A stretch of DNA of 58,481 nucleotides from a virus, in IMG/VR virus record IMGVR_UViG_3300034004_000010, positions 1 through 58,481 of that record. One strand, given 5' to 3'. A model generated the notes under the pieces. It was given only the letters and a program-made list of their open reading frames with translations. It did no database searches and was not told where the DNA came from. This document shows positions 738 to 48,171 of the stretch, piece after piece (the stretch's first letter is position 1; each line of letters begins with the position of its first letter). The position numbers were made by a program, and so were the translations under genes.

Positions 738-783
738 CGACGAGGCCCTGCCCCCACTCGACCTGGGGGCAGGGCCGCTCGTC
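738..783. terminator. Bidirectional terminator between convergent genes
   Basis: A perfect 12-bp GC stem (GGCCCTGCCCCC at 744-755 with GGGGGCAGGGCC at 765-776, 9-nt loop) is extended by GACGAG/CTCGTC outer arms at 738-743 and 778-783. It separates the rightward gene ending at 735 from the leftward integrase ending at 782. No clear U tract follows, as is common in actinobacteria. Confidence 0.75.
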
Positions 784-2170
784 ATTCTCCCCGCACCCTC
801 GGCGTGATCCGCACCGTCGCCGGGTCGAACCCCCGCCGCCCCCGAGGCGATGGCAACACCTCTACCCGCATCAACGCCGCCACCACCCCGCGCCGGATCA
901 TCAACGACGCCCCGTCGAAGTACCCCACCGGGTCCGCCGCCGACACCAGACCCGCCGCCCCCCTCCCCGCAGCGGTCCGCGCCTGCGCCTGCTCTACCCG
1001 CCGCAACTCACTGAGGAGCTTGTCGCGCTTCGTGGCGTAACGGCGGGCGTCGATCAAGTCCTCGTCGTAGTCGGCCTCCACCCGCTCCAGCCGACGCCGC
1101 AGCCTCGTCAACTCCTCCGCGAGCCTCTTCGCCGCCGGGTCATCCCGCGCCGGCAACAGGTCCGCCAGGTCCGGGCGGGCCAGCAGCGCCCGCGTCAACG
1201 TCACCACGTACTCATCGACCGGGCCCTGCGTCCGCGACATACCGCACGCCCGGCACCAGTACCGCGCCTGGGAGAACGACGTCAGCTCCGGCCGGTCAGG
1301 GCACGCCCCACACAGGTACAGCCCCGACCCCAGGTACTTGCGGTCAGTCCCCACCTGCGTCCTGCGCCGGGGGTCCGCCAGACGCGCCTGGATGACGTCG
1401 AACGTGGCCTCATCGACCAGCGGCTCCCACCCGCCGAGGGTGCCCGTCGTCTGCCCCTGATACTTCTGCCGGCCGCAGTACCGCGGGTTCGTCAGGATGC
1501 CGCGGACGCTCGACGGCTTCCACCGCTCCGCATGCCGGGGCCGCAGGCTCGTGCCGTCCAGCCACGTCGTCAACCCGGCAAGGGACTCGCCAGCGGCGAA
1601 GAGGGCGAACACCTCCCGGATCACGTCTGCCTCCGCGGGGACGAGTTCACCCGCCGACGTGTACCCGGTGAGGCGCACCCCCAGGGGTGGCTTGCCGAGA
1701 TCGGCGCGCTGCCGGTTCGACCGCTTCCTGCGTGCACTGTTGCGCAGCACCTCACCGGCCGCGAACGCCAACTTCACCCGCGCCTGCGTGATCCCGTTGT
1801 CCGTCGTCAGGTCCGCGTCCCCGGACGACGTGACCAGCAGCAGTCCCCGGTCGGCTGCGGCGTCGATCCAGTCCTCGAGCTGGCGTGGCTGGCGGGTGAG
1901 CCGGTCCAGGTCGTAGCAGACGAGGGCGTCGAACCTGCCGGCGGCGTAGTCCTCGACGAGCGCGTTGTACCCGGGCCGATCCTTGCGCTTGTCAGATGCG
2001 GAGATGGAGTTGTCGACGTACTCGCGGACGATCGCCCACCCCCGGGACGCGGCGATGCGTCGGCAGTCCTCGCGCTGACGGGTCACGGCTAGGAGTTCGC
2101 CGGTGGCGTCGAGGGAGACGCGCAGGTAGAGGGCGCAGCGGGCACCGGCAGTAGCGTGAGCGTCAGGCAC
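782..2170 (-). CDS. int: Large serine recombinase (phage integrase)
   Basis: Site-specific recombinase that would integrate the circular genome at attB through serine-linked double-strand breaks. The 462-aa protein has an N-terminal resolvase domain with the motif YLRVSLD (nucleophile Ser19) and the helix-E region near DLDRLTR (residues 87-93). It continues with a recombinase domain (about 160-270), a zinc ribbon with Cys287, Cys290, Cys306 and Cys309, and a coiled coil (about 345-400). All regions of a functional large serine integrase are present, although it is shorter than many. It starts with GTG at 2170, which overlaps the stop of a 21-codon reading frame. A 48-bp dyad just upstream (2191-2238) is the likely attP. 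A separate directionality factor is not identified. Confidence 0.93.
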   Translation of the reverse strand: MPDAHATAGARCALYLRVSLDATGELLAVTRQREDCRRIAASRGWAIVREYVDNSISASDKRKDRPGYNALVEDYAAGRFDALVCYDLDRLTRQPRQLEDWIDAAADRGLLLVTSSGDADLTTDNGITQARVKLAFAAGEVLRNSARRKRSNRQRADLGKPPLGVRLTGYTSAGELVPAEADVIREVFALFAAGESLAGLTTWLDGTSLRPRHAERWKPSSVRGILTNPRYCGRQKYQGQTTGTLGGWEPLVDEATFDVIQARLADPRRRTQVGTDRKYLGSGLYLCGACPDRPELTSFSQARYWCRACGMSRTQGPVDEYVVTLTRALLARPDLADLLPARDDPAAKRLAEELTRLRRRLERVEADYDEDLIDARRYATKRDKLLSELRRVEQAQARTAAGRGAAGLVSAADPVGYFDGASLMIRRGVVAALMRVEVLPSPRGRRGFDPATVRITPRVRGE

Positions 2171-2228
2171 CCGGCCAAACCTGCCACACGGTGTTGCTGC
2201 GCGCCGTAACGTCGTCGAGTTCCGTCAT
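2163..2228 (-). CDS. Possible 21-aa leader peptide coupled to integrase
   Basis: An ATG at 2228 opens a 21-codon frame whose stop lies 8 bp inside the integrase gene, so ribosomes ending here could restart on the integrase GTG. It lacks a convincing Shine-Dalgarno. The same DNA is the imperfect dyad proposed as attP, so the open frame may be accidental. Confidence 0.25.
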   Translation of the reverse strand: MTELDDVTARSNTVWQVWPGA

Positions 2229-2238
2229 GCACCAACAC
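2191..2238. other. attP: Candidate attP of the serine integrase
   Basis: A 48-bp imperfect inverted repeat begins GTGTTG and ends CAACAC. Comparing the left half with the reverse complement of the right half, 15 of the outer 20 positions match, and the centre falls between 2214 and 2215. Known serine-integrase attP sites are about 50 bp, imperfectly palindromic, asymmetric at the central dinucleotide, and usually directly upstream of the integrase gene. All of these hold here (inference from family knowledge). Confidence 0.6.
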
Positions 2239-2260
2239 GTTGAGTGCGGGGGCAAAGTGA

Positions 2261-2295
2261 AGCCCCTCAACCCGGGGTCCGGGGGTTGAGGGGCT
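2261..2295 (-). terminator. Rho-independent-type hairpin after the 2311-2529 gene
   Basis: AGCCCCTCAACCC at 2261-2273 pairs perfectly with GGGTTGAGGGGCT at 2283-2295 (13-bp stem, 9-nt loop). It is placed 16 bp beyond the stop of the leftward gene at 2311 and would insulate the integrase from upstream transcription. Confidence 0.8.
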
Positions 2296-2310
2296 CGCTG
2301 TCGTGCCTGG

Positions 2311-2529
2311 CTAGGACGCCATAGGCCTTCGGAGCCCGGCGTCCATCTGCTGATCCAGCCAGGTGATCGTGTCAACGGCGGCGATGGTCACCCGCACGTC
2401 GCCGGGGCGATCCGGGAACCACGCGCCGAACGCCAACCCCCCGAGGCTGGGACGGAACACGATGTCGTAGTCGGAGTGGGACACCGGCCGGTCCGTGGCC
2501 AGAGTCTTCGAGTCGGTTGGGTTGCTCAC
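2311..2529 (-). CDS. Hypothetical protein (72 aa)
   Basis: A leftward gene with a GTG start at 2529 and its own terminator downstream. The product is acidic, with aromatic-rich segments (DYDIVFRPSLGGLAFGAWF) suggesting a small beta-structured protein. No family is recognised. It sits between the repressor and the integrase, a common location for lysogeny-expressed morons. Confidence 0.55.
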   Translation of the reverse strand: MSNPTDSKTLATDRPVSHSDYDIVFRPSLGGLAFGAWFPDRPGDVRVTIAAVDTITWLDQQMDAGLRRPMAS

Positions 2530-2699
2530 TGCGGCGGTACCCCCACCATCACATTGCCTTGCCTGAAGGGGACGGGCACCGGGGTCGGCGCCTCGTCACC
2601 GTCGGCCCCCGGCCGGCGACTCCCTCACCCTATGCACCCCCACCGTCACAGCCGAGCGATGAACGGGGTGGGCATCCCCCGAACATGGGGGGTGTCGCG
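2530..2699. other. Non-coding spacer with a small hairpin
   Basis: No gene seen. A CCCCC-gaacat-GGGGG hairpin near 2676-2692 lies just beyond the stop of the repressor and may terminate it. The spacer probably also holds the promoter of the 2311-2529 gene, but no good -35/-10 pair is visible. Confidence 0.4.
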
Positions 2700-3215
2700 C
2701 TAGCTTCCGTCGCCCCGATGCGCGTCATCCGACCCACGCGCCACCCGTGACTGGTCGAACTCCCGGATCGCCTCCAGCGCAGCCGCCCGAGCCCGCGCCA
2801 ACGCCAACTCCCGCTCCACCGGCGTCAACTGCTCCAGCACCCCACGGGGGAAGCTCAGCACCACCCGGCCCTCGTCACCGCTCGTTGTCACTACATCGAC
2901 TCCGTCCAATGCCGCCACGACATCCCCGGGGCTCGCCCGGTACCTCCCGCCCCCGAGAGGCGTCAGGTGCAGGCCCAGTACCCGCTCGAGGGCCTCATGC
3001 ACTGCCTTCGACCGCACAGCGGCCGGCCGCTCAGCGTTCTCCCATGCGCTGACAGCGCGGAGGGAGACGCCCACGTCCCGCGCGAACTGCGCCTGAGAGA
3101 CGTGGTTCTGCTCCCGGTAGCGCTTCACGAGCTCGCCGATCGTCGCGGACACGGCGACATCGTTGACCCATCCATCACCCACAGCAACACCCGCTGCCTC
3201 CCGAAGTGCGTGCAC
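2700..3215 (-). CDS. Xre-family immunity repressor candidate
   Basis: A 171-aa regulator with an N-terminal helix-turn-helix (about residues 25-62: ELVKRYREQNHVSQAQFARD, then VGVSLRAVSAWENAER), followed by an Ala/Arg-rich C-terminal region with no obvious peptidase motif. It is therefore not a LexA/CI-type self-cleaving repressor. It is divergent from a Cro-like gene across a 173-bp region with a good promoter and symmetric sites, the standard lysogeny-switch layout. A GTG at 3215 was used; internal GTG codons before the HTH (for example codon 22) are possible. Confidence 0.75.
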   Translation of the reverse strand: MHALREAAGVAVGDGWVNDVAVSATIGELVKRYREQNHVSQAQFARDVGVSLRAVSAWENAERPAAVRSKAVHEALERVLGLHLTPLGGGRYRASPGDVVAALDGVDVVTTSGDEGRVVLSFPRGVLEQLTPVERELALARARAAALEAIREFDQSRVARGSDDAHRGDGS

Positions 3216-3273
3216 TGTTGCGGGTCACAGTGGCAGGGTTGTGCGCAAGGTCGCTAGTGGCGCGCAGTAGGGG

Positions 3274-3291
3274 GCGCCCCATGCGGGGCGC
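3274..3291. repeat. GC palindrome in the repressor/Cro intergenic region
   Basis: GCGCCCC (3274-3280) and GGGGCGC (3285-3291) form a perfect 7-bp dyad around a 4-nt centre. It lies between the divergent genes and could be an operator or a leader hairpin. Its position upstream of the cro-side -35 favours an operator. Confidence 0.4.
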
Positions 3292-3352
3292 ATCGGGACA
3301 TCGGCCCTGCTCCACCGTTCGCATGAACTGCACAACAGACACGCGTTACTGC

Positions 3353-3381
3353 TTGTCAACTGCGCATGAGATGCGTACTGT
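3353..3381 (+). promoter_or_regulatory. Early/cro promoter with operator in the spacer
   Basis: TTGTCA at 3353-3358 and TACTGT at 3376-3381 are separated by the ideal 17 bp. The spacer is occupied by the perfect dyad CGCAT-gag-ATGCG (3363-3375). The half-site CGCATGA is repeated at 3320-3326. The expected transcript start coincides with the ATG at 3389, predicting a leaderless mRNA. A repressor bound to this dyad would block polymerase directly. Confidence 0.65.
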
Positions 3382-3388
3382 CGCACTC

Positions 3389-3622
3389 ATGACAAGAACC
3401 GCTCGGATCGTAGACACGGTCCGCTTGCGGACCCTGCGGGAGGACCGCATCGGGTCCCAGACCGCCCTCGCCCTCGAAGTCGGCGCCAGTTGGCGATCCG
3501 TCGCCCGCTGGGAAGCCGGCAGCACCCAGCCCTCTCCCACCACGCTCGTGAAGCTGGCGGAAGTCCTGGGAGCCCCCCTCGATGACTTCGCGCCCCGCGT
3601 GCCCATCGAGGCCGCCGCGTGA
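3389..3622 (+). CDS. Cro-like helix-turn-helix regulator (77 aa)
   Basis: A small DNA-binding protein whose core (RTLREDRIGSQTALALEVGA then SWRSVARWEAGSTQPSPTTL) is a typical Xre/Cro HTH with the W-E-x-G-x-x-x-P signature. Single-domain HTH proteins divergent from a larger repressor usually act as Cro. The ATG at 3389 sits exactly at the predicted transcription start, which is why it was chosen over upstream in-frame codons. Its stop overlaps the next small gene. Confidence 0.75.
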   Translation: MTRTARIVDTVRLRTLREDRIGSQTALALEVGASWRSVARWEAGSTQPSPTTLVKLAEVLGAPLDDFAPRVPIEAAA

Positions 3623-3750: not shown

Positions 3751-3825
3751 ACCCCCGTCTCGCCCGGCGTGGGGAAGCGCTTGGCGGGACGGGACACCAC
3801 TCAGCACCACCAGCAACAAGCAGCA

Positions 3826-3887: not shown

Positions 3888-3943
3888 GGCTGATCAGTGA
3901 CCGCAAGGGCGGCTTTCGCCGTCCCCTACGAGACGAGTGTGAC

Positions 3944-16737: not shown

Positions 16738-17123
16738 TCGAGAACTGGCAGGCCGACCGCAAGGAACTGCCCAACGACCTCCTCCCTGACGGTGAGGTGT
16801 GGCACCCGGCCACCGTCCGCTGGTGGCAGCGCTGGCTCATGTCGCCTCTGAGCGAGAAGTGGACCGAGGTCGACTGGTCCGAGCTCGAGGCGTGCGCGGT
16901 GCTCCATCAGGAGTTCATGAAGAAGCGCACCTTCACGCTGGCGTCGGAGATCCGGCTGCGCGTGGCCAAATTCGGCGCAACCCCTGAGGACCGGGCAAGA
17001 CTTCGCATCGTCTTCGCTGACGCTGACGAGAAGGACGCCAAGCGCCCTGCTGCTGGATCGGCTAGCCGTGAGCGCTTCGGCGACCTCCGCATCCTTCCTG
17101 GGGCTGGCGCGGCGGGCTCCTGA
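16659..17123 (+). CDS. terS: Terminase small subunit
   Basis: 154-aa DNA-recognition subunit of the packaging motor, assigned from its position directly before the large subunit (TGATG overlap) and a composition typical of P27-like/actinophage small terminases: Gly/Pro/Lys start (MAGKGPAPKPSSRR), helical body with PATVRWWQRWLMSPLS, acidic C-terminal segment. The ATG at 16659 has AGAGGGAG upstream. The overlap with the HNH gene in another frame is 79 bp. Confidence 0.75.
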   Translation: MAGKGPAPKPSSRRVRTNGDTIPSRVIENWQADRKELPNDLLPDGEVWHPATVRWWQRWLMSPLSEKWTEVDWSELEACAVLHQEFMKKRTFTLASEIRLRVAKFGATPEDRARLRIVFADADEKDAKRPAAGSASRERFGDLRILPGAGAAGS

Positions 17124-18724
17124 TGCCCTGGAAGCCCTCGCGTCCCGGTGAGATCCCGACGCTCGGCTGGGGCGTGCTGGACTGGATGAGCGAGGTTCTC
17201 GCCGCTCCTGACCGCTCGGACTACGAGCCGTTCGTCCCGACGCGCGACCAAGCCGGCTTCGTCTTGCGGCTGTACCAGCTCGATCCGCGGACTGGTCGTC
17301 GGGTTCACCGACGCGCCGTGTACTCGCGCCCGAAGGGTTCCGGAAAGAGCCCGTTCTTGGCGGCGATCGTCCTGGCCGAGTGCTTGGCCGAGGTGGTCCC
17401 GGATGGCTGGGATGCGTACGGGCAGCCCGTAGCGCGCCCGTGGAGCGATCTGCGGACGCCGTGGGGCCAGGTGATGGCCGTGTCCGAAGACCAGACGCGT
17501 AACGCTTGGGCGCCACTGCTCGAGATGCTCCGCAACGGTCCGGCGTGTGACATCTACCCGAATCTCGATCCGATGGACACCTTCGTGGCGCTCCCGGCGG
17601 GTCGCATCGAGGCAGTGACGGCGTCGGCGACCTCGCGAGAGGGCAACCGGCCGATCATCTGCCTACTGGACCAGACCGAGTCATGGTCCCCCTCGAACGG
17701 CGGCGTGCGACTGGCTGCCGTGGCTCGACGGAACCTCGGCAAGACCAACGGGGTCAGCGTCGAGGCCCCGAACGCCTATGTCCCCGGCTCGGGGTCGGTG
17801 GCGCAGTCCTCCGCGGAGTACGCGGCGCTCATCACGGCGGGCAAGGCCAAGGACGAAGGCCTGTTGTACGACCACCGTGAGGCGCCAGCCGGAACCCGCC
17901 TCGACGACCGCGACAGTCTCCTGGCGGGGCTGCAGGTCGCCTACGGAGATTCGGCGGCGGTCAACGGCGGATGGGTCGACCTTGACCGCATCGTGGCGGA
18001 GATCTGGGACCCGGCGACGGACCCGCAAGACGCGCGCCAGTATTACTTGAACCAGATCACGCACGCGTCGGACTCTTGGCTGTCTCAGCCGGAGTGGGCA
18101 GCATGCGCGGACGCAACGCGGCACCTGGCCGACCGGGAGCTCGTGACCCTCGGCTTCGACGGTTCGGTGCGTGATGACGCTTCGGCGTTGGTCGCGTGCC
18201 GTGTCGCTGACGGGCATCTCGAGGTGCTCGGCGTGTGGGAGCCGCGGGGCGCCAAGGACGACGCGCAGGTGGACCGCGAGGCGGTCGACGCGGCGGTTGA
18301 GGCTGCATTCGGGCGGTTCGACGTGGCCGGCATGTACTGCGACCCGGCGCTGTGGCAGGACTACGTGGACCGGTGGACGCAGAAGTATGGCGCCAAAGTC
18401 CGACAGAAGGCGTCGGCGAACCGACCGCTGGAGTGGTGGACGAACCGGCCGACGGCGATGGCTGCGGCTCTGGAGCGGTTCCACACGGCGGTCCTGGGTG
18501 GCCAGTTGTCGCATGACGGCGACTCGCTGCTGACGTCGCACGTGCTGAACGCGCGCCGGCGGGAGTCCCGGTCGGGTCTGCTGATCGGGAAAGAACACCC
18601 AAAATCGGCGCGAAAGATCGACGCGGCGATGGCTGCCGTCCTGGCGTATGAATGCCGTAGCGATGCCGTGGCCTCGGGCGTGACAGCCGCCCGCCGTAAG
18701 ACGGCCCCGAAGCGAATCATGTGA
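17123..18724 (+). CDS. terL: Terminase large subunit
   Basis: 533-aa packaging ATPase/nuclease. The N-terminal ATPase carries Walker A SRPKGSGKS (about residues 68-76) and a Walker B region IICLLDQTESW (about 177-187, with Asp-Gln-Thr-Glu instead of Asp-Glu). The C-terminal RNase-H-like nuclease has FDGSVRDDAS (first acidic pair) and a YCDPALW motif, with a third acidic residue likely in KIDAAMA. This is the actinophage HK97-like terminase type. Its ATG overlaps the terS stop. Confidence 0.93.
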   Translation: MPWKPSRPGEIPTLGWGVLDWMSEVLAAPDRSDYEPFVPTRDQAGFVLRLYQLDPRTGRRVHRRAVYSRPKGSGKSPFLAAIVLAECLAEVVPDGWDAYGQPVARPWSDLRTPWGQVMAVSEDQTRNAWAPLLEMLRNGPACDIYPNLDPMDTFVALPAGRIEAVTASATSREGNRPIICLLDQTESWSPSNGGVRLAAVARRNLGKTNGVSVEAPNAYVPGSGSVAQSSAEYAALITAGKAKDEGLLYDHREAPAGTRLDDRDSLLAGLQVAYGDSAAVNGGWVDLDRIVAEIWDPATDPQDARQYYLNQITHASDSWLSQPEWAACADATRHLADRELVTLGFDGSVRDDASALVACRVADGHLEVLGVWEPRGAKDDAQVDREAVDAAVEAAFGRFDVAGMYCDPALWQDYVDRWTQKYGAKVRQKASANRPLEWWTNRPTAMAAALERFHTAVLGGQLSHDGDSLLTSHVLNARRRESRSGLLIGKEHPKSARKIDAAMAAVLAYECRSDAVASGVTAARRKTAPKRIM

Positions 18725-33775: not shown

Positions 33776-36451
33776 GTGAGCCTGCCCACCGGTCTGTCCA
33801 CCGTCACCGTGACCTGCGGCCCGTACGTGGACGCGAAGGGCGCCCCCTACACGGGGACCGTCACGTTCACCCCATCCACGAAGGTCCGCTGGGCCGCGAC
33901 CGGCGCCGTCGTCCTCGACGGCACCGTGAACGTCCCCATCGACACCACCGGCGTCGGGCAGGTCACCCTCCCCGCGACCGACGCCGCCGGCCTGAACGTC
34001 ACCGGGTTCACCTACAGCGTGGCGTACTCCCTGCGCGGCGCAGGCGGCGCCGTCACGGGTGTCCGCGCCGCGTACTCGATCCAGATCCCGGCCGCCGCGC
34101 CGACAGTGACGCTCGAGCTCCTGCAGCCGTTCGCCTCGACCGGCGGCATCGATGTGTCCGTGCCCGCGGTGACATCAGTGGCGGGCTTGACGGGGGCAGT
34201 GTCGGCCAGCGACCTCACCACGGCTCTCGGTGGCGTCCCTGGTGGCGGCGGGGGTGGGGGTGGAGGGGTTGTCAGCGAGCCCGTCGCAGACGCCACCGCT
34301 GTCACCAAGGGCATCCTGCAACTCACCGGCGACCTCGCCGGGACCGCCTCGTCACCCATCATCGCCACAGGCGCCGTCACCAGCGCCAAGCTCGCGGCCG
34401 GCGCCGTGGGCGCTGCGGCCCTCGGCGCAGGCGCGGTGACCAGCGCGAAACTCGCGCCCGACCTCAAGTCGACCCTGCCGCTGCTCACCCCCGCCGTGTC
34501 CACCACCACCATCGGCACCCTCGTCGCCGGAGCGGTCAACCGGATCACCCCGACCGCTGCGGCAACGCGCGGCCTGCCGGACGCCGTCAACGCAGGCGCG
34601 GGCGCCATCATCGTGGTCAAGGCCGCGGCGAACCCCGTCACCATCACCTCGCAGGGGTCCATCCCCAGCCTCGTCGGGACGTCGGGCGGCACCAGCAACG
34701 GCCTCACCCTGCCCGGCGGGATCCAGGCCGGCGACGTCATCCTCCTCGTCTGCGCCTCCTACACCCTCGGCCTCGCCGTCCCCGCCGGGTTCACGCTGCT
34801 CGCGACTGCGGCGAACGCCACCAGCGGCTCCGGCCAGGCCACGATCTTCTACAAGGTCGCGGCAGGCACGGAGTCCAGCTCGAGCATCCCCGGGATCACG
34901 AACAACACCGGCATGGCCGCCGTCGTGGTGCGCGGCGCCAACGGCACCGCCCCATTCGACCCGTCGAAGCCGACGGCGACGTTCGGGTACCAGCTCACCC
35001 ACACCCCGCCGTCGATCACCACCTCAAGCGCCTGCTACCTGCTGTTCATCGACTCCACCACGCAGGACACCACCGGCGGCTCCGTCACCGGCCCCCCGAT
35101 CCTGAACGGAAAGACGGCCACTTTCGGGATCACCATCTGGGGCGCCACGCAGAGCGGCGCGGGCACCACCGCATGCCCGGGCACCGTCACGTTCGGGAGT
35201 GCTGTCGCCGGGTCCGGCATCACCATCGGCCTCACGTCCGGTGTGACCGTCAGTTCCATCAACGGCACCGTCGGCGCCAGCCGCGTCGTCGCGGCCGGCG
35301 AGACGGTCATTCTTCGCTCCGACGGCGTCTCCGACTGGGCCGACATCACCGGCGGCTCGCCCGTATCGGTCCTGGACGCCCGCTACGACGCGGCCGGGGC
35401 GGCGACAGCCGTGGACGCCAGGGTTACGGCCCTCGCGTCGTCCATGTCGAACACCCTTGACCGGTCCCCGGTGCTGTGGCCGTTCTCGGTCGACTCGATC
35501 TGGAACCTGCCGGTCGCCACCACTGCGCGGTTCGAGAAGTCCACAGACACGATGACCGCCGCGCTGCTCGGGGCCTCGGGCACGCCGTGGATGAACTCGG
35601 AGCAGTACAGCCACCCGGTGACGCAGGCTTCGGACAGTGACCCGTTGGCGACTGTCACCGACTTCTACGAACCCACTCGGTCGGGCATCTTCCGAGTGCC
35701 AGCCAACGCCACGATCGCTGGCGGCGGCGACCAGCACATGCACATCGTGGACCCGCTACAGGTGTGGGTGCACGAGTGCTTCGGCACGACCAGGAACTCG
35801 CCGACGTCGTACACGGTCGGCCGGCACGAGGCATCAAACCTCTACGGCCCGGGCGCGGGGCCAATCGGCGGTACGCGTGCCTATGGCGGGTCCGCGATCG
35901 GGGGGCTGATCCGCAAATGGGAAGTGGACCCCACGCACCCGGCCTACACGGGTGAGATCCGGCACGCCCTAGCCATCGCACTCGGAAACAACCAGCTGTA
36001 CTACAACTCCGTCGGCTCCGCTGTCGGGCAAGACCAGTACGGGTGGGGTGCCAGCCGCGGCTACGTGTGGCCCGCGACCGAGCAGGACTACGACTCGCCG
36101 TACACGTACTTCGGCGTCATCCCGATGGGGTCGTTCTGCGCGATCCCATCGTGGGTGAACGTGGAGGCGTTGCCGTTGTCGGCGGCCGGGAAGATGGTCG
36201 CGCGGGCGATGCAGCGTTACGGCGTCTACGTCACTGACCGGTCGGCGGCGTTCACGATGTACGTCGAACCGGGAACCCCCACGTCCTGGCTGTATCCGGC
36301 CAGAGACAACATCGCCGTTCTGAGGGCGCAGCTGCGAATCGTCACCAACAGTGGAAAGGGCACCCCAGGCGGCGGTGTCTGGCTGGGTGACGACTCGAAC
36401 CGCGTCGCACCGCTGGCGCCCCCCCTTCCCCCCCTCCCGAAGGGAGCGTGA
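33776..36451 (+). CDS. Large tail fibre with C-terminal enzyme-like domain (891 aa)
   Basis: N-terminal beta domain (about 1-130) is followed by a Gly9 linker and a collagen/fibre-shaft-like stretch with repeated GAVTSAKLA units (about 195-230), then beta domains. The C-terminal 330 residues start with a SIWNLPV motif and include GGGDQHMHIVD, HECFG, HEASNLYGPGAGPIGG and RHALAIALG. These resemble secreted actinobacterial carbohydrate-active proteins of the 'S-x-W-N-x-P' type (inference; exact family not certain). Probable adsorption fibre that binds or degrades a surface polysaccharide. Confidence 0.7.
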   Translation: MSLPTGLSTVTVTCGPYVDAKGAPYTGTVTFTPSTKVRWAATGAVVLDGTVNVPIDTTGVGQVTLPATDAAGLNVTGFTYSVAYSLRGAGGAVTGVRAAYSIQIPAAAPTVTLELLQPFASTGGIDVSVPAVTSVAGLTGAVSASDLTTALGGVPGGGGGGGGGVVSEPVADATAVTKGILQLTGDLAGTASSPIIATGAVTSAKLAAGAVGAAALGAGAVTSAKLAPDLKSTLPLLTPAVSTTTIGTLVAGAVNRITPTAAATRGLPDAVNAGAGAIIVVKAAANPVTITSQGSIPSLVGTSGGTSNGLTLPGGIQAGDVILLVCASYTLGLAVPAGFTLLATAANATSGSGQATIFYKVAAGTESSSSIPGITNNTGMAAVVVRGANGTAPFDPSKPTATFGYQLTHTPPSITTSSACYLLFIDSTTQDTTGGSVTGPPILNGKTATFGITIWGATQSGAGTTACPGTVTFGSAVAGSGITIGLTSGVTVSSINGTVGASRVVAAGETVILRSDGVSDWADITGGSPVSVLDARYDAAGAATAVDARVTALASSMSNTLDRSPVLWPFSVDSIWNLPVATTARFEKSTDTMTAALLGASGTPWMNSEQYSHPVTQASDSDPLATVTDFYEPTRSGIFRVPANATIAGGGDQHMHIVDPLQVWVHECFGTTRNSPTSYTVGRHEASNLYGPGAGPIGGTRAYGGSAIGGLIRKWEVDPTHPAYTGEIRHALAIALGNNQLYYNSVGSAVGQDQYGWGASRGYVWPATEQDYDSPYTYFGVIPMGSFCAIPSWVNVEALPLSAAGKMVARAMQRYGVYVTDRSAAFTMYVEPGTPTSWLYPARDNIAVLRAQLRIVTNSGKGTPGGGVWLGDDSNRVAPLAPPLPPLPKGA

Positions 36452-37572
36452 CCGCGATGCGGGTCCTGTATGACGTCGACCTCAAGGCGTACGCCGACAG
36501 CGCGTCGCTGCCGCAACCCGACTTCAGGGTTGTGACCAACGGCGGCGCCACCTTCGCCGTCAGCGGCGGCGCGGGCGTCTTCACCGCGACGTCAGCGACG
36601 AACTACTCGTCGTACGCGTACGCGAAGCTACGCACGCAGGTCGAGGACAACTACGAGATCCTCGTCCAGTACAAGCTGGTGAACATCGGGGCCGGTGCAT
36701 TCGCCAGCCTGTACTTCCGGTCCTCCGACTTCAATGCAGTGAACTCCAGCCCCGACTGGTGCTACAACGCGGGCTTCCCGGTCGCCACCTCCTCGTACGG
36801 GTACTCGAAGCGGGCGAACGCGTCCACCGTAACGTTGGCGCCCAAGCAAGACGGCGCGCTATCGCGGACGCCGGTGAACGGCGACATCATCAGCTACCGG
36901 CTCCGGGTCGAGGGCGACCTGTTCCGCAGTAAGGCGTGGTTCGAGGGCACCACCGAGCCGTCCACCTGGGGCGCGTACGCGATGGACCCGGGGCAGGTGG
37001 GCCGCGGCGGGATGTACCTCTCCTTCAGCGGGGGCACCTTCGGCGCGGCAGTGATCGAGCTCCGCCGCGTCGTCGTCGCCGACCTGACGACCGACCGCGA
37101 AGGTGCGATCACCGAGTCGCAAAGCCTCGTGCACATCGGCCGAACCGAGACGATCCACGGCGTCAAGACGTTCAGCCAGCCTCCAACCATGCCCACTCCG
37201 ACGGCGACCGGGCATGCTGCGACGAAGGCGTACGTCGACGGCCTCGCCCTCACCAGGACTGTCAACGTCGTCGCCGCATCCGGCGCCGCGCAGACCATCC
37301 CGGCGCCAACGACGGCACTCATGCACAAGTACACCCTGACCGCGAACTGCACCTTCACGCTCCCGACTGCGGTGGCAGGGCAGTCGTTCCTCGTGTCGCT
37401 CGTGCAGGACGGCACAGGCTCCCGGACCGCCACCTTCACCGGTGCGAAGTGGCCGGGTGGCACGGCCCCCACTCTCTCCACCGGCGCGGGGAAGATCGAC
37501 GACCTGGCGTTCGTGTGCACCGACGCGACGACGGGCTGGAAGGGCCAAGTTGTGGGCTTGGACATGCGATAG
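36448..37572 (+). CDS. Tail fibre protein with lectin-like and shared C-terminal domain (374 aa)
   Basis: GTG overlaps the previous stop. The N-terminal 200 residues form a LamG/concanavalin-like beta sandwich (YEILVQYKLVNIGAGAFASL, then YRLRVEGDLFRSKAWFEGT). The final 103 residues (37261-37572) are about 86% identical to the end of the protein encoded at 39176-40141. A THGVKTFSQPP-like hinge precedes the duplicated module. Likely a receptor-binding or fibre-tip protein. Confidence 0.7.
   Translation: MTAMRVLYDVDLKAYADSASLPQPDFRVVTNGGATFAVSGGAGVFTATSATNYSSYAYAKLRTQVEDNYEILVQYKLVNIGAGAFASLYFRSSDFNAVNSSPDWCYNAGFPVATSSYGYSKRANASTVTLAPKQDGALSRTPVNGDIISYRLRVEGDLFRSKAWFEGTTEPSTWGAYAMDPGQVGRGGMYLSFSGGTFGAAVIELRRVVVADLTTDREGAITESQSLVHIGRTETIHGVKTFSQPPTMPTPTATGHAATKAYVDGLALTRTVNVVAASGAAQTIPAPTTALMHKYTLTANCTFTLPTAVAGQSFLVSLVQDGTGSRTATFTGAKWPGGTAPTLSTGAGKIDDLAFVCTDATTGWKGQVVGLDMR
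37261..37572 (+). repeat. Duplicated fibre C-terminal module, copy 1
   Basis: Encodes the 103-residue module that begins VNVVAASG and ends VGLDMR. Copy 2 is at 39830-40141, with about 14 amino-acid differences. Includes the shared core MHKYTLTANCTFT and RTATFTGAKW. Confidence 0.8.
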
Positions 37573-37629
37573 CAGCCGCGCCTGTCTGACCAGCATCACT
37601 ACACACCTCACGATCCGGAAGGCGCCTTG

Positions 37630-39108
37630 ATGGCCACGTACGTGTTCATCCCCACCCCGGTCACGGGCGGCGCGACGGTGCGGTTCGACACCGCCTCCGG
37701 GTCGACCAGCCCAGCAACGATCTATCCGATGGACTACTCGGAGCCCATCCCTGGCGCGCTGGTGCGGGCGCACACGTTCAGCGGGAACCTCCCGAAGATC
37801 GAGTCCGACAGCGCCACGCTGTACCAGAAGACCCTGGACTACCGGGGGACCACCGTCACCGCGACGACGACGCTGACGGGCGTAGCGCAGGCCACGGGCG
37901 CGCCTGTCTCGGGCGTTGACCTGTCTGCTCTCAATGCCACCTTCGCTCAAGACAAGCAGGGCTACTACGTCCCCCCGGGTTGGGGCGCGTCGTGGCGTGC
38001 GGCCCGGGCGACCGCTGCGGCTGGCACAGGCCTAGCTCGCGTCGCCTTCGTGGGCGACTCCATCACGCAGGGGTTCGACGCCTCGAACCTCTACACCACG
38101 TCCTACCCGCACTTGATCCGCTCCACGTTGCAGACCACCTTTGGCGACGGCGGTTCCGGCTTCCTGGGCATGGCGCACACCAGCAACTACTCCGTGTTCG
38201 AGGCCAGCGGCTACAGCGGCCAGCTCCGTGTTGCACTGTCGGGCACGTGGACCACCAACACCCCCGAGTCGGGCAGCGTCGGCGGCGAAGGCACGGGGGG
38301 TGTCGGGTACTCCTCCTCCACGTCGGGGAACACCGCAACGTTCTCCCAGGTCCGGGGCACCAGCATCACCATCTGGTACAGCACCTTCCCCTCGAACGGC
38401 ACCTTCACGGTCACTGTCGACGGCTCAGTGGTGGGCACCATCAACGCCGGCATAGCGCAGAGCATGGCGTCCACGACGTACGCCGTGTCGGCGGGCACCC
38501 ACACTGTCATCCTCACCCTCACCGCCGCTGCCGGCGTGACCATCTTCGGGGTGACCGGCTCCAACGCGACCGGCGTCCGCGTCGACAACTACGGCCGATC
38601 GAGTGCGGACTCCCGGCACTTCAACCTCAGCACCAACGGCGCAGCCAACGCCACCGTGACCGGCGGCACCGCCGCCACCTACTCCGGCGGCTCGGCCAAT
38701 CCGTGCGACCTGCTCATCTACGCGATGTTCGTCAACGACTCCGGCAACGGCGTGACGGGCACGCAGTACATGTCGAACATCAAGCAGCACATGGATCAGG
38801 TGCGCAACCGCGTGGCCAACCCAGCCACCGACATCATCTTCTTCCACCCCCACATCGGGAGGTGGGACGGCACGAACTACCGCAGCCTGGAGTACGCGGC
38901 GCAGATGCACTCCGCCGCCGCCATCTTCGGCGCCGCATACGTCAACGCGGGGGCGATCAACAAAAACTCCTGGGACTACTTCAACAGCCTGGGCGGCTGG
39001 GGTTCCGGCCACAACACCACTGGCGCGTCGGGCACCGACTCCGTCCATCCTGGCGATGCTGGCCACCAGCTGTACGCGAACTATCTGCTGACTCTCATCA
39101 ACAGCTAG
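37630..39108 (+). CDS. Tail-associated SGNH/GDSL hydrolase (492 aa)
   Basis: N-terminal module (about 1-90) is shared with the protein at 39176-40141 (GSTSPATI, then ATLYQKTL). After a linker the SGNH hydrolase begins with RVAFVGDSITQGFD (nucleophile Ser144) and ends with GTDSVHPGDAGHQ (catalytic Asp470 and His473). A beta-sandwich insert lies between (about 200-330). SGNH enzymes remove acetyl or acyl esters, so this is a candidate deacetylase acting on host envelope glycans. The GGAAGG site favours ATG 37630 over the TTG just upstream. Confidence 0.85.
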   Translation: MATYVFIPTPVTGGATVRFDTASGSTSPATIYPMDYSEPIPGALVRAHTFSGNLPKIESDSATLYQKTLDYRGTTVTATTTLTGVAQATGAPVSGVDLSALNATFAQDKQGYYVPPGWGASWRAARATAAAGTGLARVAFVGDSITQGFDASNLYTTSYPHLIRSTLQTTFGDGGSGFLGMAHTSNYSVFEASGYSGQLRVALSGTWTTNTPESGSVGGEGTGGVGYSSSTSGNTATFSQVRGTSITIWYSTFPSNGTFTVTVDGSVVGTINAGIAQSMASTTYAVSAGTHTVILTLTAAAGVTIFGVTGSNATGVRVDNYGRSSADSRHFNLSTNGAANATVTGGTAATYSGGSANPCDLLIYAMFVNDSGNGVTGTQYMSNIKQHMDQVRNRVANPATDIIFFHPHIGRWDGTNYRSLEYAAQMHSAAAIFGAAYVNAGAINKNSWDYFNSLGGWGSGHNTTGASGTDSVHPGDAGHQLYANYLLTLINS

Positions 39109-39175
39109 CCCGCATGGTCGTCACCTGACCTGCAGGCCCCGCCGCTCGAACAGCCACCCCGGAGGAGACCCCCTG

Positions 39176-40141
39176 ATGGCGCGGTACTACTTCCAACTCT
39201 CCACCGTCACCCCCGGGACGTACGTCCGGCTCGACTCCGCCTCCGGCTCAACATCCCCCACGGCGATCAGCCCCCGGGATTCCGCGGTGGTCATCCCCGG
39301 CTCGATCCTGAGATCAGATGCCACGACCGGGGGACTGCCGGGGGTGGCTGCCGGGGTGGCGACGCTGTACCAGAAGACCCTCAGTGCCACTGGCGCGGTG
39401 ACCGCCACTGCGACTCTGACGGGCACGCTCGTCGACGGCTCCGATCCGGGCGCGCTGCCTCCGTTGACCTTCCCGCAGCAGGTCAACACGTCGAGCGACC
39501 CGCCGAAGCTCGCGGGGCCTAACGCGTGGACCGGAACGCAGGACTTCACCGGCGCCACAGTGACCGGCATCAGTGGTGGCGGTAGTGCCACGGTTGGCAC
39601 TACCGCCGGCACAGTCGCGGCCGGGGACGACTCGCGGATCACTGGTGCGGCGCAGAAGTCGGCGAACCTGTCCGACCTGGCCTCCGCCTCCACCGCGCGA
39701 ACAAACCTCGGCCTCGGCACGGCCTCAACCCAAGCCACCGGAACCTTCCTGCAGGCCGTGAACAACCTGTCCGACGTCACTGCGGCGACAGCTCGCGCCA
39801 ACCTCGGCGCGGTGGGCATCACGGAGGCCGTGAACGTCGTCGCGACGTCAGGCTCCGCCCAGACGATCCCCGCGCCGACCACGGCGACGATGCACAAGTA
39901 CACCCTCACGGCGAACTGCACGTTCACTATGCCCACGGCCACAGCCGGGCAGTCGTTCTCCGTGTCACTCGTGCAAGACGCCACCGGCAGCCGCACAGCC
40001 ACCTTCACCGGTGCGAAGTGGGCCGGCGGCACCGCCCCGACCCTGTCGACAGGCGCCAGCAAGATTGACGACCTGGTGTTCCAGTGCACCGACGCCACCG
40101 TGGGCTGGAAGGGCTACGTCGCCGGACTGGACATGCGGTGA
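39176..40141 (+). CDS. Tail fibre protein built from shared modules (321 aa)
   Basis: Chimeric fibre. Its first 85 residues match the N-terminus of the SGNH hydrolase gene (SASGSTSPTAISPRD, ATLYQKTLSATG), its last 103 residues match the end of the 36448-37572 protein, and the middle has fibre repeats of the type KSANLSDLASASTARTNLGL and NNLSDVTAATARANLGAVG. Such SDLxSxxTARxNLGL repeats are typical of trimeric phage tail fibres. Confidence 0.8.
   Translation: MARYYFQLSTVTPGTYVRLDSASGSTSPTAISPRDSAVVIPGSILRSDATTGGLPGVAAGVATLYQKTLSATGAVTATATLTGTLVDGSDPGALPPLTFPQQVNTSSDPPKLAGPNAWTGTQDFTGATVTGISGGGSATVGTTAGTVAAGDDSRITGAAQKSANLSDLASASTARTNLGLGTASTQATGTFLQAVNNLSDVTAATARANLGAVGITEAVNVVATSGSAQTIPAPTTATMHKYTLTANCTFTMPTATAGQSFSVSLVQDATGSRTATFTGAKWAGGTAPTLSTGASKIDDLVFQCTDATVGWKGYVAGLDMR
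39830..40141 (+). repeat. Duplicated fibre C-terminal module, copy 2
   Basis: Partner of 37261-37572; starts VNVVATSGSAQT and ends VAGLDMR. High identity over the whole module indicates recent duplication or gene conversion within the fibre cluster. Confidence 0.8.
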
Positions 40142-41019
40142 GCGGGCGCGCCGCGTTCCGACTGCTCGAGGCGAACAAGGCGGCGGCGCCGTCGACACCC
40201 CTGCTGCTCGACTCGGCCACGCCGTTCGCGGCGTTCTCCGTGCGGAAGCTGCGCACGGCCTACGGGGGTTCGGCGCTGCGCGTCCAGCGCGCCTCCGACA
40301 GCACCGAACAGGACATCGGCTTCACCTCGGGTGGCGATCTGGACACGACAGCGCTGGGGACGTTCTGCTCAGGCACCACCGGCTACGTCTCGAAGTGGTA
40401 CGACCAGTCCGGGAATGGCCGCGACCTGGCGCAGACCACGCAGGCCCGCATGTGGCGCATCTACGCCAGCGGCGCCGTCGACACGAAGAACAGCAAGCCG
40501 TCACTGCTTGCCACGGATGACACGCGCGGCATGCTCACCGCCGCGTTCACCGCGAGCACATCGAACATCGCCAATGCCGCCGCTGTCGCGAGCCATCCGA
40601 GCCTGTCCGCGACCACCTCGCCGCGTCTCGTGAGCGCTGTCGGCGCGTCGAACATCGACAGCACCGTAGCGGACGGAATCGCGTTGATCATGCGCAACGG
40701 GAACACGTCACCCACCCAGCAGTGGCGCCTGCTCAGGCAGAGCTCGAACCTTCTACAAACAGCGGTGTATGACCAGCTTCAGCAGGTCTACTCGTTCACG
40801 TCGAACGGGTCGGCTGTTCTCGCGGTCGACGGAGCGCAGGTGAGTGGAACGGTACCTGGCGGCACGATCACCGCCACGAACCTCCTGCTCAGCATGTTGG
40901 GGACCGCGGGTTATGCCAGCGTGAACGGGCTGCGCGTGTCGGAGGTGCTGTTCTCCTTCGCCGCGCTGGACCAGGCGACGATCCGCTCAAGCCAGAAGGC
41001 CTACTTCGCCACGGCCTAA
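40138..41019 (+). CDS. Arabinofuranosidase B-like/LamG fibre protein (293 aa)
   Basis: GTG overlaps the previous stop. The pattern AFSVRKLRTAYGGSALRVQR, SDSTEQDIGF, GGDLDTTAL, SKWYDQSGNGRDL is that of the N-terminal beta-sandwich found in alpha-L-arabinofuranosidase B proteins and many phage fibre lectins. The remainder completes a concanavalin-like fold. It is most likely a carbohydrate-binding tail protein; arabinan as ligand is inference, attractive because actinobacterial walls can carry arabinogalactan. Confidence 0.72.
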   Translation: MSGRAAFRLLEANKAAAPSTPLLLDSATPFAAFSVRKLRTAYGGSALRVQRASDSTEQDIGFTSGGDLDTTALGTFCSGTTGYVSKWYDQSGNGRDLAQTTQARMWRIYASGAVDTKNSKPSLLATDDTRGMLTAAFTASTSNIANAAAVASHPSLSATTSPRLVSAVGASNIDSTVADGIALIMRNGNTSPTQQWRLLRQSSNLLQTAVYDQLQQVYSFTSNGSAVLAVDGAQVSGTVPGGTITATNLLLSMLGTAGYASVNGLRVSEVLFSFAALDQATIRSSQKAYFATA

Positions 41020-44215: not shown

Positions 44216-44226
44216 TTGCACAGCAT

Positions 44227-44260: not shown

Positions 44261-44274
44261 GCTGCGTTTGCCGC

Positions 44275-45320: not shown

Positions 45321-45602
45321 TCAGCCGTCCCAGCTCAGTCGATAGTCGGGATGGTCGCGGTAGGGCTGGGCGAGCGCGCGGATCGCGACCAGGATGCCGG
45401 TGGCGTGGTAGCCGATGACTTCACCGCCGGGCAGGGCGCCCTGCTCGCGACGCAGATGGTAGGCGTCCAGGACGGCCCGCTTCGCCTCGACCTCGGCCAA
45501 GAGCCGCGCGGGCCAGCCGTAAGCGAGACCCAGCCCTGCATCGGCGCGGATGGCCCGCTCGTCCTCATCCAGCCGGCCGCGCAGGAACTCGGTCAGGTCC
45601 AC
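45321..45602 (-). CDS. DUF6221-like small protein (93 aa)
   Basis: The pattern LTEFLRGRLDEDERAIRA, a middle ARLLAEVEAKRAVLDAYHLR and an end ALAQPYRDHPDYRLSW matches the actinobacterial DUF6221 family (function unknown), often found on actinobacterial chromosomes, plasmids and phages. GTG at 45602 has GGAGG 7 bp upstream and overlaps the preceding stop; upstream in-frame sequence is not coding. Confidence 0.72.
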   Translation of the reverse strand: MDLTEFLRGRLDEDERAIRADAGLGLAYGWPARLLAEVEAKRAVLDAYHLRREQGALPGGEVIGYHATGILVAIRALAQPYRDHPDYRLSWDG

Positions 45603-45865
45603 GTCACTGCCTCCACCATCTCGGGGGCATCCCACGTCGTCCCCAGCTTCGCCGCGAGCCACACCAGCCCCGGCATGTCCAACTCCGGCCCCGCCAACCC
45701 CTCACACTCCACACACGGCGTCGGATGCCCCCACTCCGCCACCAGCACCTGGCACGGCAGCCCACGACGCGGCAGGCTTTCCGCCGGCGGGTTGCACAGG
45801 ACGCCGCTGTTACGGCGCCCGCAGTGCGGGCAGGCGGGCGGCGCGGGGGAGGGGGCGTCAGTCAT
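45593..45865 (-). CDS. Zinc-ribbon small protein (90 aa)
   Basis: Cys pairs CPHC and CVEC with additional Cys (VLCNPP and LPCQVL) predict a zinc-stabilised fold in the N-terminal 55 residues. The C-terminal part is helical with WLAAKLG. ATG at 45865 overlaps the preceding gene's end. Similar to small actinobacterial proteins beginning 'CPxCGR'; function unknown. Confidence 0.6.
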   Translation of the reverse strand: MTDAPSPAPPACPHCGRRNSGVLCNPPAESLPRRGLPCQVLVAEWGHPTPCVECEGLAGPELDMPGLVWLAAKLGTTWDAPEMVEAVTWT

Positions 45866-46064
45866 GGCGTATCGCCGATCGCAGCACTCGGACTCCTCGC
45901 GCCCGAGCCCGAGCCGTTGGGTACAACTCCACGTAGTGCAGTAGCTCGTCGGCAGCTTCGCGCAGAGTCGCCCCGACGTAGTGCCCTCGCCGTCCGACCC
46001 ATCGGCCGGCAACGACGACGACGGCGTCGCCGCGTTCGATGGGGTGAGAGGCAAGGTCAGCCAC
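45858..46064 (-). CDS. Small beta-rich protein (68 aa)
   Basis: Strand pattern ERGDAVVVVAGRWVGRRGHY (SH3-like) with a basic C-terminal helix. GTG 46064 follows a GAGG site and overlaps the stop of the zinc-finger gene upstream. No family recognised. Confidence 0.5.
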   Translation of the reverse strand: MADLASHPIERGDAVVVVAGRWVGRRGHYVGATLREAADELLHYVELYPTARARARGVRVLRSAIRHD

Positions 46065-46212
46065 CGGAGCGCACCTCGCTGGATGGGCACGCGAGCATAC
46101 CGTCGTCGTGCCACCACATCGAGCGGTCGTCTTTGCGGCGGAGGCGACCCCCGCAACATGCGCAGGACGCCTCGTGCTCGCTGATGCGTTCACCGGGGAT
46201 GGCGACGCCCAT
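46057..46212 (-). CDS. Small CxxC/C zinc-binding protein (51 aa)
   Basis: A short frame with a GGGAGG site, encoding ISEHEASCACCGGRLRRKDD and, further on, HDDGMLACPSS, which supplies Cys and His ligands for one zinc site. Overlaps the next gene's GTG at its end, so the cluster is co-translated. Confidence 0.5.
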   Translation of the reverse strand: MGVAIPGERISEHEASCACCGGRLRRKDDRSMWWHDDGMLACPSSEVRSGG

Positions 46213-46249
46213 CACGCCAGCCTCCCGCGCGGCACCGACACATGCGCCG

Positions 46250-46582
46250 TCACGGCCCGATCCTCAGGTTGGCCAACGCCTGGTCGTCTAGCCACACACG
46301 TACGGGGGCCCGCTCCATGTCGTGCAGCACGGCCTGCATCCGCGCCGCATCCTCCGCCGCCGCCCGCTCCGCCCCCTCCAGCGTCCGGCCGACAACGCCC
46401 CGCAGGCGGTCCTCGACCATCCGCTCCGGCATCTGCAACGCCCGCAACTCGGCACGCACCTCCTCGAGCAGCGGCGCCCACGAATCCACGTACGCCTTGA
46501 ACGCCGCGCTCGACACGTAGTAGCGGAAGCTCGCTGGCCGCAGCCGCACGACATCCGCGACCAGATCCGCCACGTCGGTCAC
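46250..46582 (-). CDS. Hypothetical helical protein (110 aa)
   Basis: GTG overlaps the preceding stop. Long helices with heptad spacing (FKAYVDSWAPLLEEVRAELR, MQAVLHDMERAP). No family recognised; lies in the overlapping leftward cluster downstream of the tyrosine integrase. Confidence 0.5.
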   Translation of the reverse strand: MTDVADLVADVVRLRPASFRYYVSSAAFKAYVDSWAPLLEEVRAELRALQMPERMVEDRLRGVVGRTLEGAERAAAEDAARMQAVLHDMERAPVRVWLDDQALANLRIGP

Positions 46583-47001
46583 GACGCCACCTCAGCGGGC
46601 AGTGCGGGGACCTTCAGCAGGTCCAGTGCGACGCCCAACGCCCGGGCCAGCTTCTCCGCCTGCATCACGACGGCGAGGAAGCCCGGCGGGCAAGTGCCGC
46701 AGTCCTCGCCGTTGCGGATCTGCTCCAGCAGTCGCTCCTTCGTCCCGGCGCACTTGTCCAACGTCTCCGCGATCTCCCATCGGACCGTCTCGGCGGTGTC
46801 GCAGTCGACCGCGGCGGCAAGGGTGGTGAACTCCGCGTCCGCCGGGGCGGGAGGCATGACCGCGTCCAGCACGCGGATCGCGGCCTGGTAGGCGGTCAGG
46901 TTGACCTCGCCCGTGGACGGGTCGACGTACTTGGCAAGGGCCGCGCAGCCCACGTCATACATCTCGTCTGACACGGCCGGGGGGACAGTGTTGGTCCTCA
47001 T
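46579..47001 (-). CDS. Hypothetical protein (140 aa)
   Basis: ATG 47001 has GAGAGG upstream. Mostly helical with a C-x2-C-type motif (EDCGTCPPGF) and CDTAE, CAGTK cysteines. First gene downstream of the integrase gap. Function unknown. Confidence 0.5.
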   Translation of the reverse strand: MRTNTVPPAVSDEMYDVGCAALAKYVDPSTGEVNLTAYQAAIRVLDAVMPPAPADAEFTTLAAAVDCDTAETVRWEIAETLDKCAGTKERLLEQIRNGEDCGTCPPGFLAVVMQAEKLARALGVALDLLKVPALPAEVAS

Positions 47002-47052
47002 GTCGCTACCTCTCGTGAGTGGACGTGTACTGACGGTCAGGTCCCCCGAGTC

Positions 47053-47090
47053 GATCTCGCGCTGCAAGTGCATAAGATCCGTGCGAGATC
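47053..47090. repeat. Inverted repeat at the 3' end of the tyrosine integrase
   Basis: GATCTCGC (47053-47060) and GCGAGATC (47083-47090) form an 8-bp dyad whose right arm overlaps the integrase stop. It may be a terminator hairpin or an arm/core element of a tyrosine-integrase attP, which often lies beside int. No tRNA-like core is visible. Confidence 0.35.
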
Positions 47091-48171
47091 AGAGGCCGAG
47101 CTTCGTGGCCGCGTTGTGCTTCCACACGCCGGCCTCTTCGCGGTAGCCGCGCATCACGTTCGGCGACTTCCACCCGCCCTGCTGCATGATGTCCATCTCG
47201 GACACCTCCTGCGCGTACGCCTCGGTGGCGAACCCGCGGCGGCCGGAGTGCCCACCCCAGTCCCCGGCGAGGCCAGCGGCAGCGGCGCGGCGCTTCACGA
47301 CCTCCGCGACGTCGCGGCCATCCAGCCTGCGCGGCTGGCCCCCGAGGGCCTTGAGGTTGCCCCACTGGTCCATCGACGGGAACGCGGGCCCCTCCGTGAC
47401 GCCGTAGACCTTGAGCCACGCCAGCCACGACCTCACAGGGCACGTGGCCATGTGTGAGCCGTAGGGGAGACCCTTCGTCTTCCCCTCGCCGGTCTGGTCC
47501 GTTTTCGACCGGCCCAGGACCACCTCGAGCCCGTCCTCGACGACGGTGAAGTCGGTGATGTCGAGGGCGGCGACCTCGGAGCGGCGGAACGCTCCGGAGA
47601 ACAGGACCAGCAGCAGCGCCCGATCCCGAACGTCGAGCGGGTCGCTGGCGAACGTGGCGAGGATGCGGCGAAGGTCCTTGGTCCGCATGGCCTTCTTCTT
47701 GCGCTTGCGCCTACCAGCGTCGGCCTGCGCCTTGCGGATGCCGGTGAGGACGGACACCACCTGCTCGGCCCACACGATCTGCCTGTGGGCGGTGACGCCG
47801 GCGTGGGCGTAGCCGACGCTGATGCTGGACAGCTTCTTCGTCAGCGTGGACGCCGCCAGCCCGGGCCGGTCGCCGTTCGGCTCGGCGAGGGCGGTGAGGT
47901 AGAGGCGGATCGTCTCGGACACGTACTGCGCGGGGGTCGCGCCCTCGCTGGTGGCGTCGTCCGGGCTGGGGAACACGGTTCGGGCGTGCTTGCCGCACCA
48001 CTCGACGTACAGCTTCCAGTCCGTCTCGTACACCCGCCACGTTGACGCCTTGCGCGAGTTGTCGGCGTGCTCGTCGGCCTTCGCCTTGAGCTCGGCGAGG
48101 ATCAGGGCGGCGTCGGGGCGGACGGGGGAGAGGGTGACCGGGGACGCCGTGGCGAGGTCGGTGGAGGTCAT
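47089..48171 (-). CDS. Tyrosine recombinase/integrase
   Basis: 360-aa site-specific recombinase. N-terminal SAM-like core-binding domain (about 35-150), then a basic linker (RRKRKKK) and the catalytic domain with Arg197 (AFRRSEV), Lys223 (GRSKTDQ), His308-x2-Arg311 (GGHSGRRGFATE), Trp334 (GGWKSP) and nucleophile Tyr343 (VMRGY). All catalytic positions are intact. It is the second integrase in this genome and lies within the plasmid-like leftward arm. It could integrate that arm, act as a resolvase for multimers or provide an alternative attachment system. ATG overlaps the upstream stop. Confidence 0.93.
   Translation of the reverse strand: MTSTDLATASPVTLSPVRPDAALILAELKAKADEHADNSRKASTWRVYETDWKLYVEWCGKHARTVFPSPDDATSEGATPAQYVSETIRLYLTALAEPNGDRPGLAASTLTKKLSSISVGYAHAGVTAHRQIVWAEQVVSVLTGIRKAQADAGRRKRKKKAMRTKDLRRILATFASDPLDVRDRALLLVLFSGAFRRSEVAALDITDFTVVEDGLEVVLGRSKTDQTGEGKTKGLPYGSHMATCPVRSWLAWLKVYGVTEGPAFPSMDQWGNLKALGGQPRRLDGRDVAEVVKRRAAAAGLAGDWGGHSGRRGFATEAYAQEVSEMDIMQQGGWKSPNVMRGYREEAGVWKHNAATKLGL

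Follow-up and report, generated by a model that had tools for sequence, protein, structure and literature searches.

The virus record IMGVR_UViG_3300034004_000010, analysed here over its full 58,481 bases (the window; G+C content about 70%), encodes two intact recombinases of unrelated families. Sequence comparisons make it reasonably probable that the two divide their labour, such that a large serine recombinase, P0001, integrates the phage at the host GTPase gene ychF, and a Cre-like tyrosine recombinase, P0002, resolves multimers of the phage DNA. The window itself is best explained as the unintegrated, circular form of a temperate siphophage from an actinobacterium. The two genes are as follows.

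782-2170, minus strand: large serine recombinase (integrase) P0001, 462 amino acids (Pfam PF00239 and PF07508; phrog_95)

47089-48171, minus strand: Cre-like tyrosine recombinase P0002, 360 amino acids (Pfam PF00589)

The original prediction, drawn from the nucleotide sequence, held that both enzymes are intact and that one integrase per phage is the norm, and the follow-up bears this out. Both open reading frames show G+C content by codon position of the coding type, and their catalytic residues are complete in alignments with relatives (serine enzyme) and with P1 Cre and relatives (tyrosine enzyme). Terminase or serine integrase similarity links 48 virus records to the window, many of them fragments; of these, 24 encode a Pfam Resolvase domain, six a Phage_integrase domain and none both; for the 22 records of at least 40 kb the counts are 13, six and zero. 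Related phages use one recombinase type or the other, and the window has both. One terminase relative (G010, L018; 62% identical) has a tyrosine integrase gene close to either end (3103-3609 and 54473-54961); the two possibly flank host or island genes.

P0001 is a prophage integrase. It has the architecture of large serine recombinases, a Resolvase catalytic domain (Pfam, E 4e-23) followed by a Recombinase domain (2e-17) and the zinc ribbon/coiled-coil part, where the alignment has two CxxC pairs; it also matches the PHROG integrase family (7e-78). R17, S19, R65, D89, R90 and R93 are invariant across eight relatives (alignment A1). The protein is 34-57% identical to nine virus homologues, up to 56% identical to many homologues in genomes, and 45-48% identical over its N-terminal two thirds to the large serine integrases of the Microbacterium phages Caron and Barnstormer.

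The original prediction had proposed locating attachment sites in host genomes that carry relatives, and for the serine enzyme this check places the relatives at the 3' end of host ychF. A single scan of GTDB genomes with alignment A1 yielded 72 loci, nearly all actinobacterial and many at 50-56% identity to P0001. In 34 loci ychF was present in the fetched flanks, either directly upstream of the integrase gene (int) or separated from it by the length of a short element, at the opposite end. The ychF frame in these loci is intact to ...GTGGTCGAGTTCCG (encoding VVEFR) and then continues into an element-specific tail and stop. Of 78 loci, 34 have a motif resembling the ychF end (at most four mismatches) within about 25-110 bp on the 5' side of int, compared with 6.5% of random windows. 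The native ychF end (CGCTTCAACGTCTGA, FNV followed by a stop) is found at the int side of many integrated copies, and the element tail at the ychF side, the pattern that a reciprocal exchange would leave.

An occupied site in Lentzea nigeriaca documents this arrangement. The element at ychF is 16,924 bp long, the Lentzea ychF 3' end reads ...GACGTGGTCGAGTTCCGCTTCAACGTCTGA, and the rejoined end is uninterrupted in all 23 other Lentzea genomes. The two ychF flanks in the occupied genome overlap by 13 bp, and this overlap contains the crossover. More generally, transfer islands insert at the ychF 3' end (L093-L164), and so do small elements that carry phage-type genes (DnaB, prohead protease); each inserted element of this serine integrase group supplies a new YchF C-terminal tail. 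A full-text literature search with partial coverage returned a review of pneumococcal phages but no paper on ychF as the bacterial attachment site (attB) of a serine integrase, which does not show that the site is unreported.

The window carries a corresponding phage attachment site (attP) next to P0001, between the integrase and a repressor-like gene.

2208-2243, plus strand: predicted attP, consisting of the ychF-3'-end-like AACGTCGTCGAGTTCCG followed by a phage-supplied tail and stop, reading NVVEFRHAPTR and a stop

2261-2295, no strand assigned: hairpin (13/14 bp) beside the predicted attP, a terminator or part of the attachment region

2700-3215, minus strand: HTH_3 repressor-like gene, candidate for immunity (Pfam HTH_3, 1.6e-8; PHROG transcriptional regulators)

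The motif AACGTCGTCGAGTTCCG (2208-2224) differs at two positions from GACGTGGTCGAGTTCCG, and 38 bp separate it from the start of int, which lies downstream. Translated in frame, it continues into a new tail and a stop (VVEFRHAPTR and stop); the site comprises GTCGTCGAGTTCCG plus this tail and stop. Because its left half and its tail are both of the element type, 2208-2243 appears to be an unrecombined attP. P0001 thus fits the ychF-targeting integrase group as we define it here, with a ychF-like VVEFR half, a new tail and a stop directly 5' of int. Judged by these comparisons, integration of the phage at host ychF by P0001 is very probable. The enzyme would join attP, just 5' of its own gene, to attB in the last codons of ychF. 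The crossover would fall within or close to the GAGTTCCG core that both sites share, and ychF would receive a substitute C-terminal tail and stop from the phage.

P0002 belongs to a Cre-like, mostly plasmid-borne family, as its sequence relationships indicate. It matches Pfam Phage_integrase (7e-14), and alignment with P1 Cre and eight relatives shows no variation at R196, E199, K223, H308, R311 and Y343. The Cre-like active-site set R-K-H-R-W/H-Y is complete, with the W in the motif GGW. Among structures in the PDB the best match is P1 Cre (E 2.6e-11), and XerD is matched weakly (2.3e-3). Searches with tblastn found homologues in 909 plasmid records as against three phage records, to which ZL12, a plasmid-prophage of Streptomyces, contributes two copies. 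At E 1e-15 a homologue occurs in eight of 397 actinobacterial genomes, and an exact-peptide query of virus and genome contigs gave no match. The nearest plasmid relative, from Alicyclobacillus, is encoded close to ParA and a HicAB toxin-antitoxin pair.

P0002 can be set beside several known systems. It and Cre of phage P1 are both phage-borne tyrosine recombinases and have their catalytic residues (R, E, K, H, R, W, Y) in common, and a lox-like 13-8-13 repeat precedes the gene in relatives of P0002; in contrast to Cre/loxP, the lox site in the window is uncertain, and P0002 is only 26% identical to Cre. P1 is not known to integrate or to encode a serine integrase. The ZL12 recombinase (pZL12.36c) is homologous to P0002 and likewise comes from an actinobacterial plasmid-prophage (Streptomyces), but it is only about 31% identical and falls in a different clade, and ZL12 has ParA/ParB and no large serine recombinase. 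By proposed function alone P0002 can also be likened to MrpA of the Streptomyces plasmid SCP2, which has been named as a multimer-resolving tyrosine recombinase (PMC3218068). Overall, P0002 is probably a resolvase acting on the phage DNA.

Lox-like sites accompany several members of the family. The Lentzea and ZL12 homologues of P0002 have an inverted repeat just upstream, with the common core CGATAAGCTNNCATATCG, and the Lentzea site is a perfect 13-8-13 repeat with the geometry of loxP. In exact scans the same core was found beside a Cre-like gene in five further virus records, none of which encodes a large serine recombinase. Sites with this core lie at L188:17603-17636 and L091:7821-7852 and in L211, L214, L217, L219 and L220 (ZL12-type virus records and the Lentzea island). 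Across 297 actinobacterial genomes the core occurs once, at the Lentzea gene itself. A second exact copy of the Lentzea site is absent from its own genome and from the 296 others, and no chromosomal partner was seen. Because its genome holds no second exact copy, the Lentzea site suits multimer resolution rather than integration. Similar repeats stand upstream of plasmid homologues in Roseomonas, Alicyclobacillus and Gordonia; repeats of this kind are found at L226:1669-1700, L222:1875-1907 and L225:2285. The exact ZL12/Lentzea core is absent from the window, and the candidate there is a different sequence.

48882-48916, no strand assigned: candidate for a P0002 lox-like site (CTTACCACTGAGAATGGAATATTCTCGGGGGTTAG), in an intergenic stretch about 0.7 kb upstream of the P0002 gene

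P0002 would act on a site in the phage's own DNA, perhaps this one, and would return circular dimers or multimers arising from replication or recombination to monomers. It would then not be a second integrase, and may have arrived with the plasmid- or transfer-island-like arm in which it lies (44.3-57.8 kb). Of the explanations offered in the original prediction, a division of labour between integration and multimer resolution is now the best supported, on one side by the predicted attP and its ychF target, and on the other by the Cre-like, mainly plasmid-borne family of P0002, several members of which have a single lox-like site beside the gene.

The 16.9-kb Lentzea island at ychF provides a second case of the pair. 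Its genes include one for a serine integrase of the same type (56% identical), a TraB/FtsK-like gene, one that probably encodes an SpdB-like membrane protein, and one for a Cre-like enzyme, which is accompanied by a lox-like site; no gene of the island was recognised as phage-derived. The recombinase pairing of the phage thus has a counterpart in a non-phage element. Since P0002 and the Lentzea Cre-like enzyme belong to different clades, the pairing was assembled at least twice, and this repeated assembly speaks for a division of labour that is useful: when an integrative element excises and replicates, circular forms and multimers arise, which a resolvase can reduce. A joint origin of both recombinases from a Lentzea-like island was considered and dropped, again because the tyrosine enzymes are in different clades. 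The other explanation in the original prediction, modules of separate origin, is plausible but not proven: the Lentzea island holds a similar pair, but its tyrosine enzyme is from another clade.

Several observations weigh against the proposed division of labour. Helix E of P0001 is atypical (I127, L142, N144) relative to its eight closest virus relatives, all eight of which have E or D in place of L142 and R in place of I127; because these residues depart from those of the relatives, the enzyme is likely, though not certain, to be active. The prophage is not known from any host genome, and integrated copies at ychF were seen for relatives. For the tyrosine enzyme, P0002 lies outside the clade with the clearest lox-like sites. 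The stretch 48882-48916 is the only match in the window (one mismatch, 0.05 expected) to the family-derived half-site pattern CGAKAA-N7-TTMTCG, but the site was already in view when this pattern was defined. On its own, the inverted repeat does no better than shuffled sequences, and the site could be an operator instead. Finally, multimer resolution matters most for autonomous replicons, yet Pfam detects no Rep, ParA or ParB among the 103 open reading frames of the window.

Alongside many unknown genes, the arm around P0002 has recognisable ones, which include, besides P0002, the following.

50413-51252, minus strand: SpdB-like membrane protein, 279 amino acids, adjoining the FtsK/TraB-like gene (identified by tblastn)

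51249-53231, minus strand: putative FtsK/TraB-like membrane ATPase, 660 amino acids, with N-terminal hydrophobic stretches, Walker A PSRHGKG and Walker B MIDE

56276-56557, minus strand: WhiB-like regulator (Pfam Whib, 1.9e-17)

57478-57783, plus strand: GntR-type repressor (Pfam GntR, 7e-14), apparently in a KorSA-like position

The SpdB-like protein is 59% identical over 61 amino acids and 53% identical over 106 amino acids (tblastn) to a Pseudonocardia protein (L097), whose gene adjoins an FtsK/TraB gene in a serine-integrase element. The FtsK/TraB-like protein has no Pfam or NCBIfam match and no match in virus contigs, plasmids or the 397 actinobacterial genomes. A profile comparison with the TraB proteins of elements gave a weak match over the Walker region (E 0.003, probability 10%), and an AlphaFold model was too poor (pLDDT, the predicted local distance difference test, 37) and was discarded. 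Beside the TraB-like gene, two further minus-strand genes of the arm (53335-54669 and 54198-55175) encode proteins whose C-terminal domains are related (32% identity over 93 amino acids), which suggests duplication.

From its gene content the arm resembles a module of an actinomycete integrative and conjugative element (AICE) or of a conjugative plasmid, and may serve in transfer. As in AICEs, including those with a serine integrase (PMC3218068), there are a putative FtsK/TraB-like gene, an SpdB-like gene, a GntR regulator and a serine integrase predicted to insert into a protein-coding gene. Unlike in AICEs, these genes are here fused to a full phage, the TraB-like protein has no significant family match, and no AICE replication initiator (RepSA, RepAM or Prim-Pol) is detected by Pfam among the 103 open reading frames. 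A more speculative possibility, which we regard as improbable though worth stating, is that the genome is a hybrid, part temperate phage and part conjugative element integrating at ychF, that is packaged in virions and can also pass from one mycelium to another through a TraB-type DNA pump. That the serine integrase of such a hybrid would serve the chromosome and the Cre-like resolvase the circular form is an equally tentative proposal.

P0002 might alternatively be a second integrase for another host site, derived from an integrative element that merged with the phage. Frankia offers a precedent in the AICE Fcci3390, which has two integrases of different subfamilies, both tyrosine recombinases, and two pairs of attachment sites (PMC3218068), and the window has a possible, weakly supported excisionase-like helix-turn-helix gene at 57142-57420. 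However, the best structural match of P0002 is Cre, its relatives are overwhelmingly on plasmids, and the site of the related Lentzea enzyme has no chromosomal partner. Nor is the arm flanked by direct repeats of the kind that tyrosine-mediated insertion leaves, the longest shared stretch being 14 nt. We consider a second integrase unlikely.

Somewhat less likely still is a mainly autonomous phage-plasmid like ZL12 or P1, kept monomeric by P0002, with the serine integrase as a backup or a recent acquisition. The circular record, the intact attP and the relationship of P0002 to the ZL12 enzyme are consistent with such a lifestyle, but the partition and plasmid replication genes of P1- and ZL12-like phage-plasmids were not found by Pfam, whereas ZL12 has ParA/ParB. 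Moreover, a large serine recombinase is encoded in none of the 12 records screened for the ZL12-type lox-like site (ZL12, the five further records with a linked Cre-like gene, and six chance matches). Least probable among these alternatives is a passenger (moron) or decaying gene with no role for the phage; a close P0002 homologue is present in none of the virus records related by terminase and the arm is poorly conserved, but the P0002 gene has its full catalytic set, a strong coding bias and no frame damage.

The record ends indicate a circular molecule. Their repeats, and the terminase gene of the phage part, are as follows.

1-120, plus strand: left copy of the terminal direct repeat (exact over the 102 bases 19-120; bases 1-18 are a poly-G artefact)

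58380-58481, plus strand: terminal direct repeat, right copy

17123-18724, plus strand: terminase large subunit, in the phage part (Pfam TerL_nuclease; best relatives 72% identical)

Bases 19-120 and 58380-58481 match exactly, and since the ends share these 102 bases the record closes into a circle; the poly-G at its start (1-18) is probably a sequencing artefact. An assembly chimera was considered but is made less likely by the 102-base end overlap and the lack of repeats joining the arm to the phage. On the circle the lysis genes are followed by the mostly leftward arm, the serine integrase, attP, the repressor, the early genes and the head and tail genes. The original prediction had placed the serine enzyme beside the immunity switch and the tyrosine enzyme in a separate plasmid-like arm. 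The two genes are not at opposite ends of the molecule: because the record ends overlap, the arm adjoins the serine integrase, and the apparent map is partly an effect of the cut point.

No close relative of the whole phage is known. The nearest terminase relatives, 72% identical, are in contigs of less than 5 kb, and megablast of positions 1-25000 of the window against phages gave no match. Elsewhere in the window, a 300-nt direct repeat (77% identical; 37232-37531 and 39801-40100) lies in or near the tail or receptor-binding genes, with a related pair of short repeats at 37813 and 39359. Among the screened open reading frames, arabinofuranosidase and GDSL lipase family matches at 33776-41019 possibly represent tail proteins or proteins that degrade the cell surface.

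The individual parts of this system are known from AICEs with two integrases and from multimer-resolving plasmid recombinases; what is new is their combination in a tailed phage with a predicted ychF site. The analysis shows that insertion at ychF recurs within one group of actinobacterial serine integrases, and that Cre-like genes of ZL12-type virus records and of some plasmids have a conserved lox-like site upstream. With these, the observation of two integrases in one phage becomes a testable division of labour with named sites.

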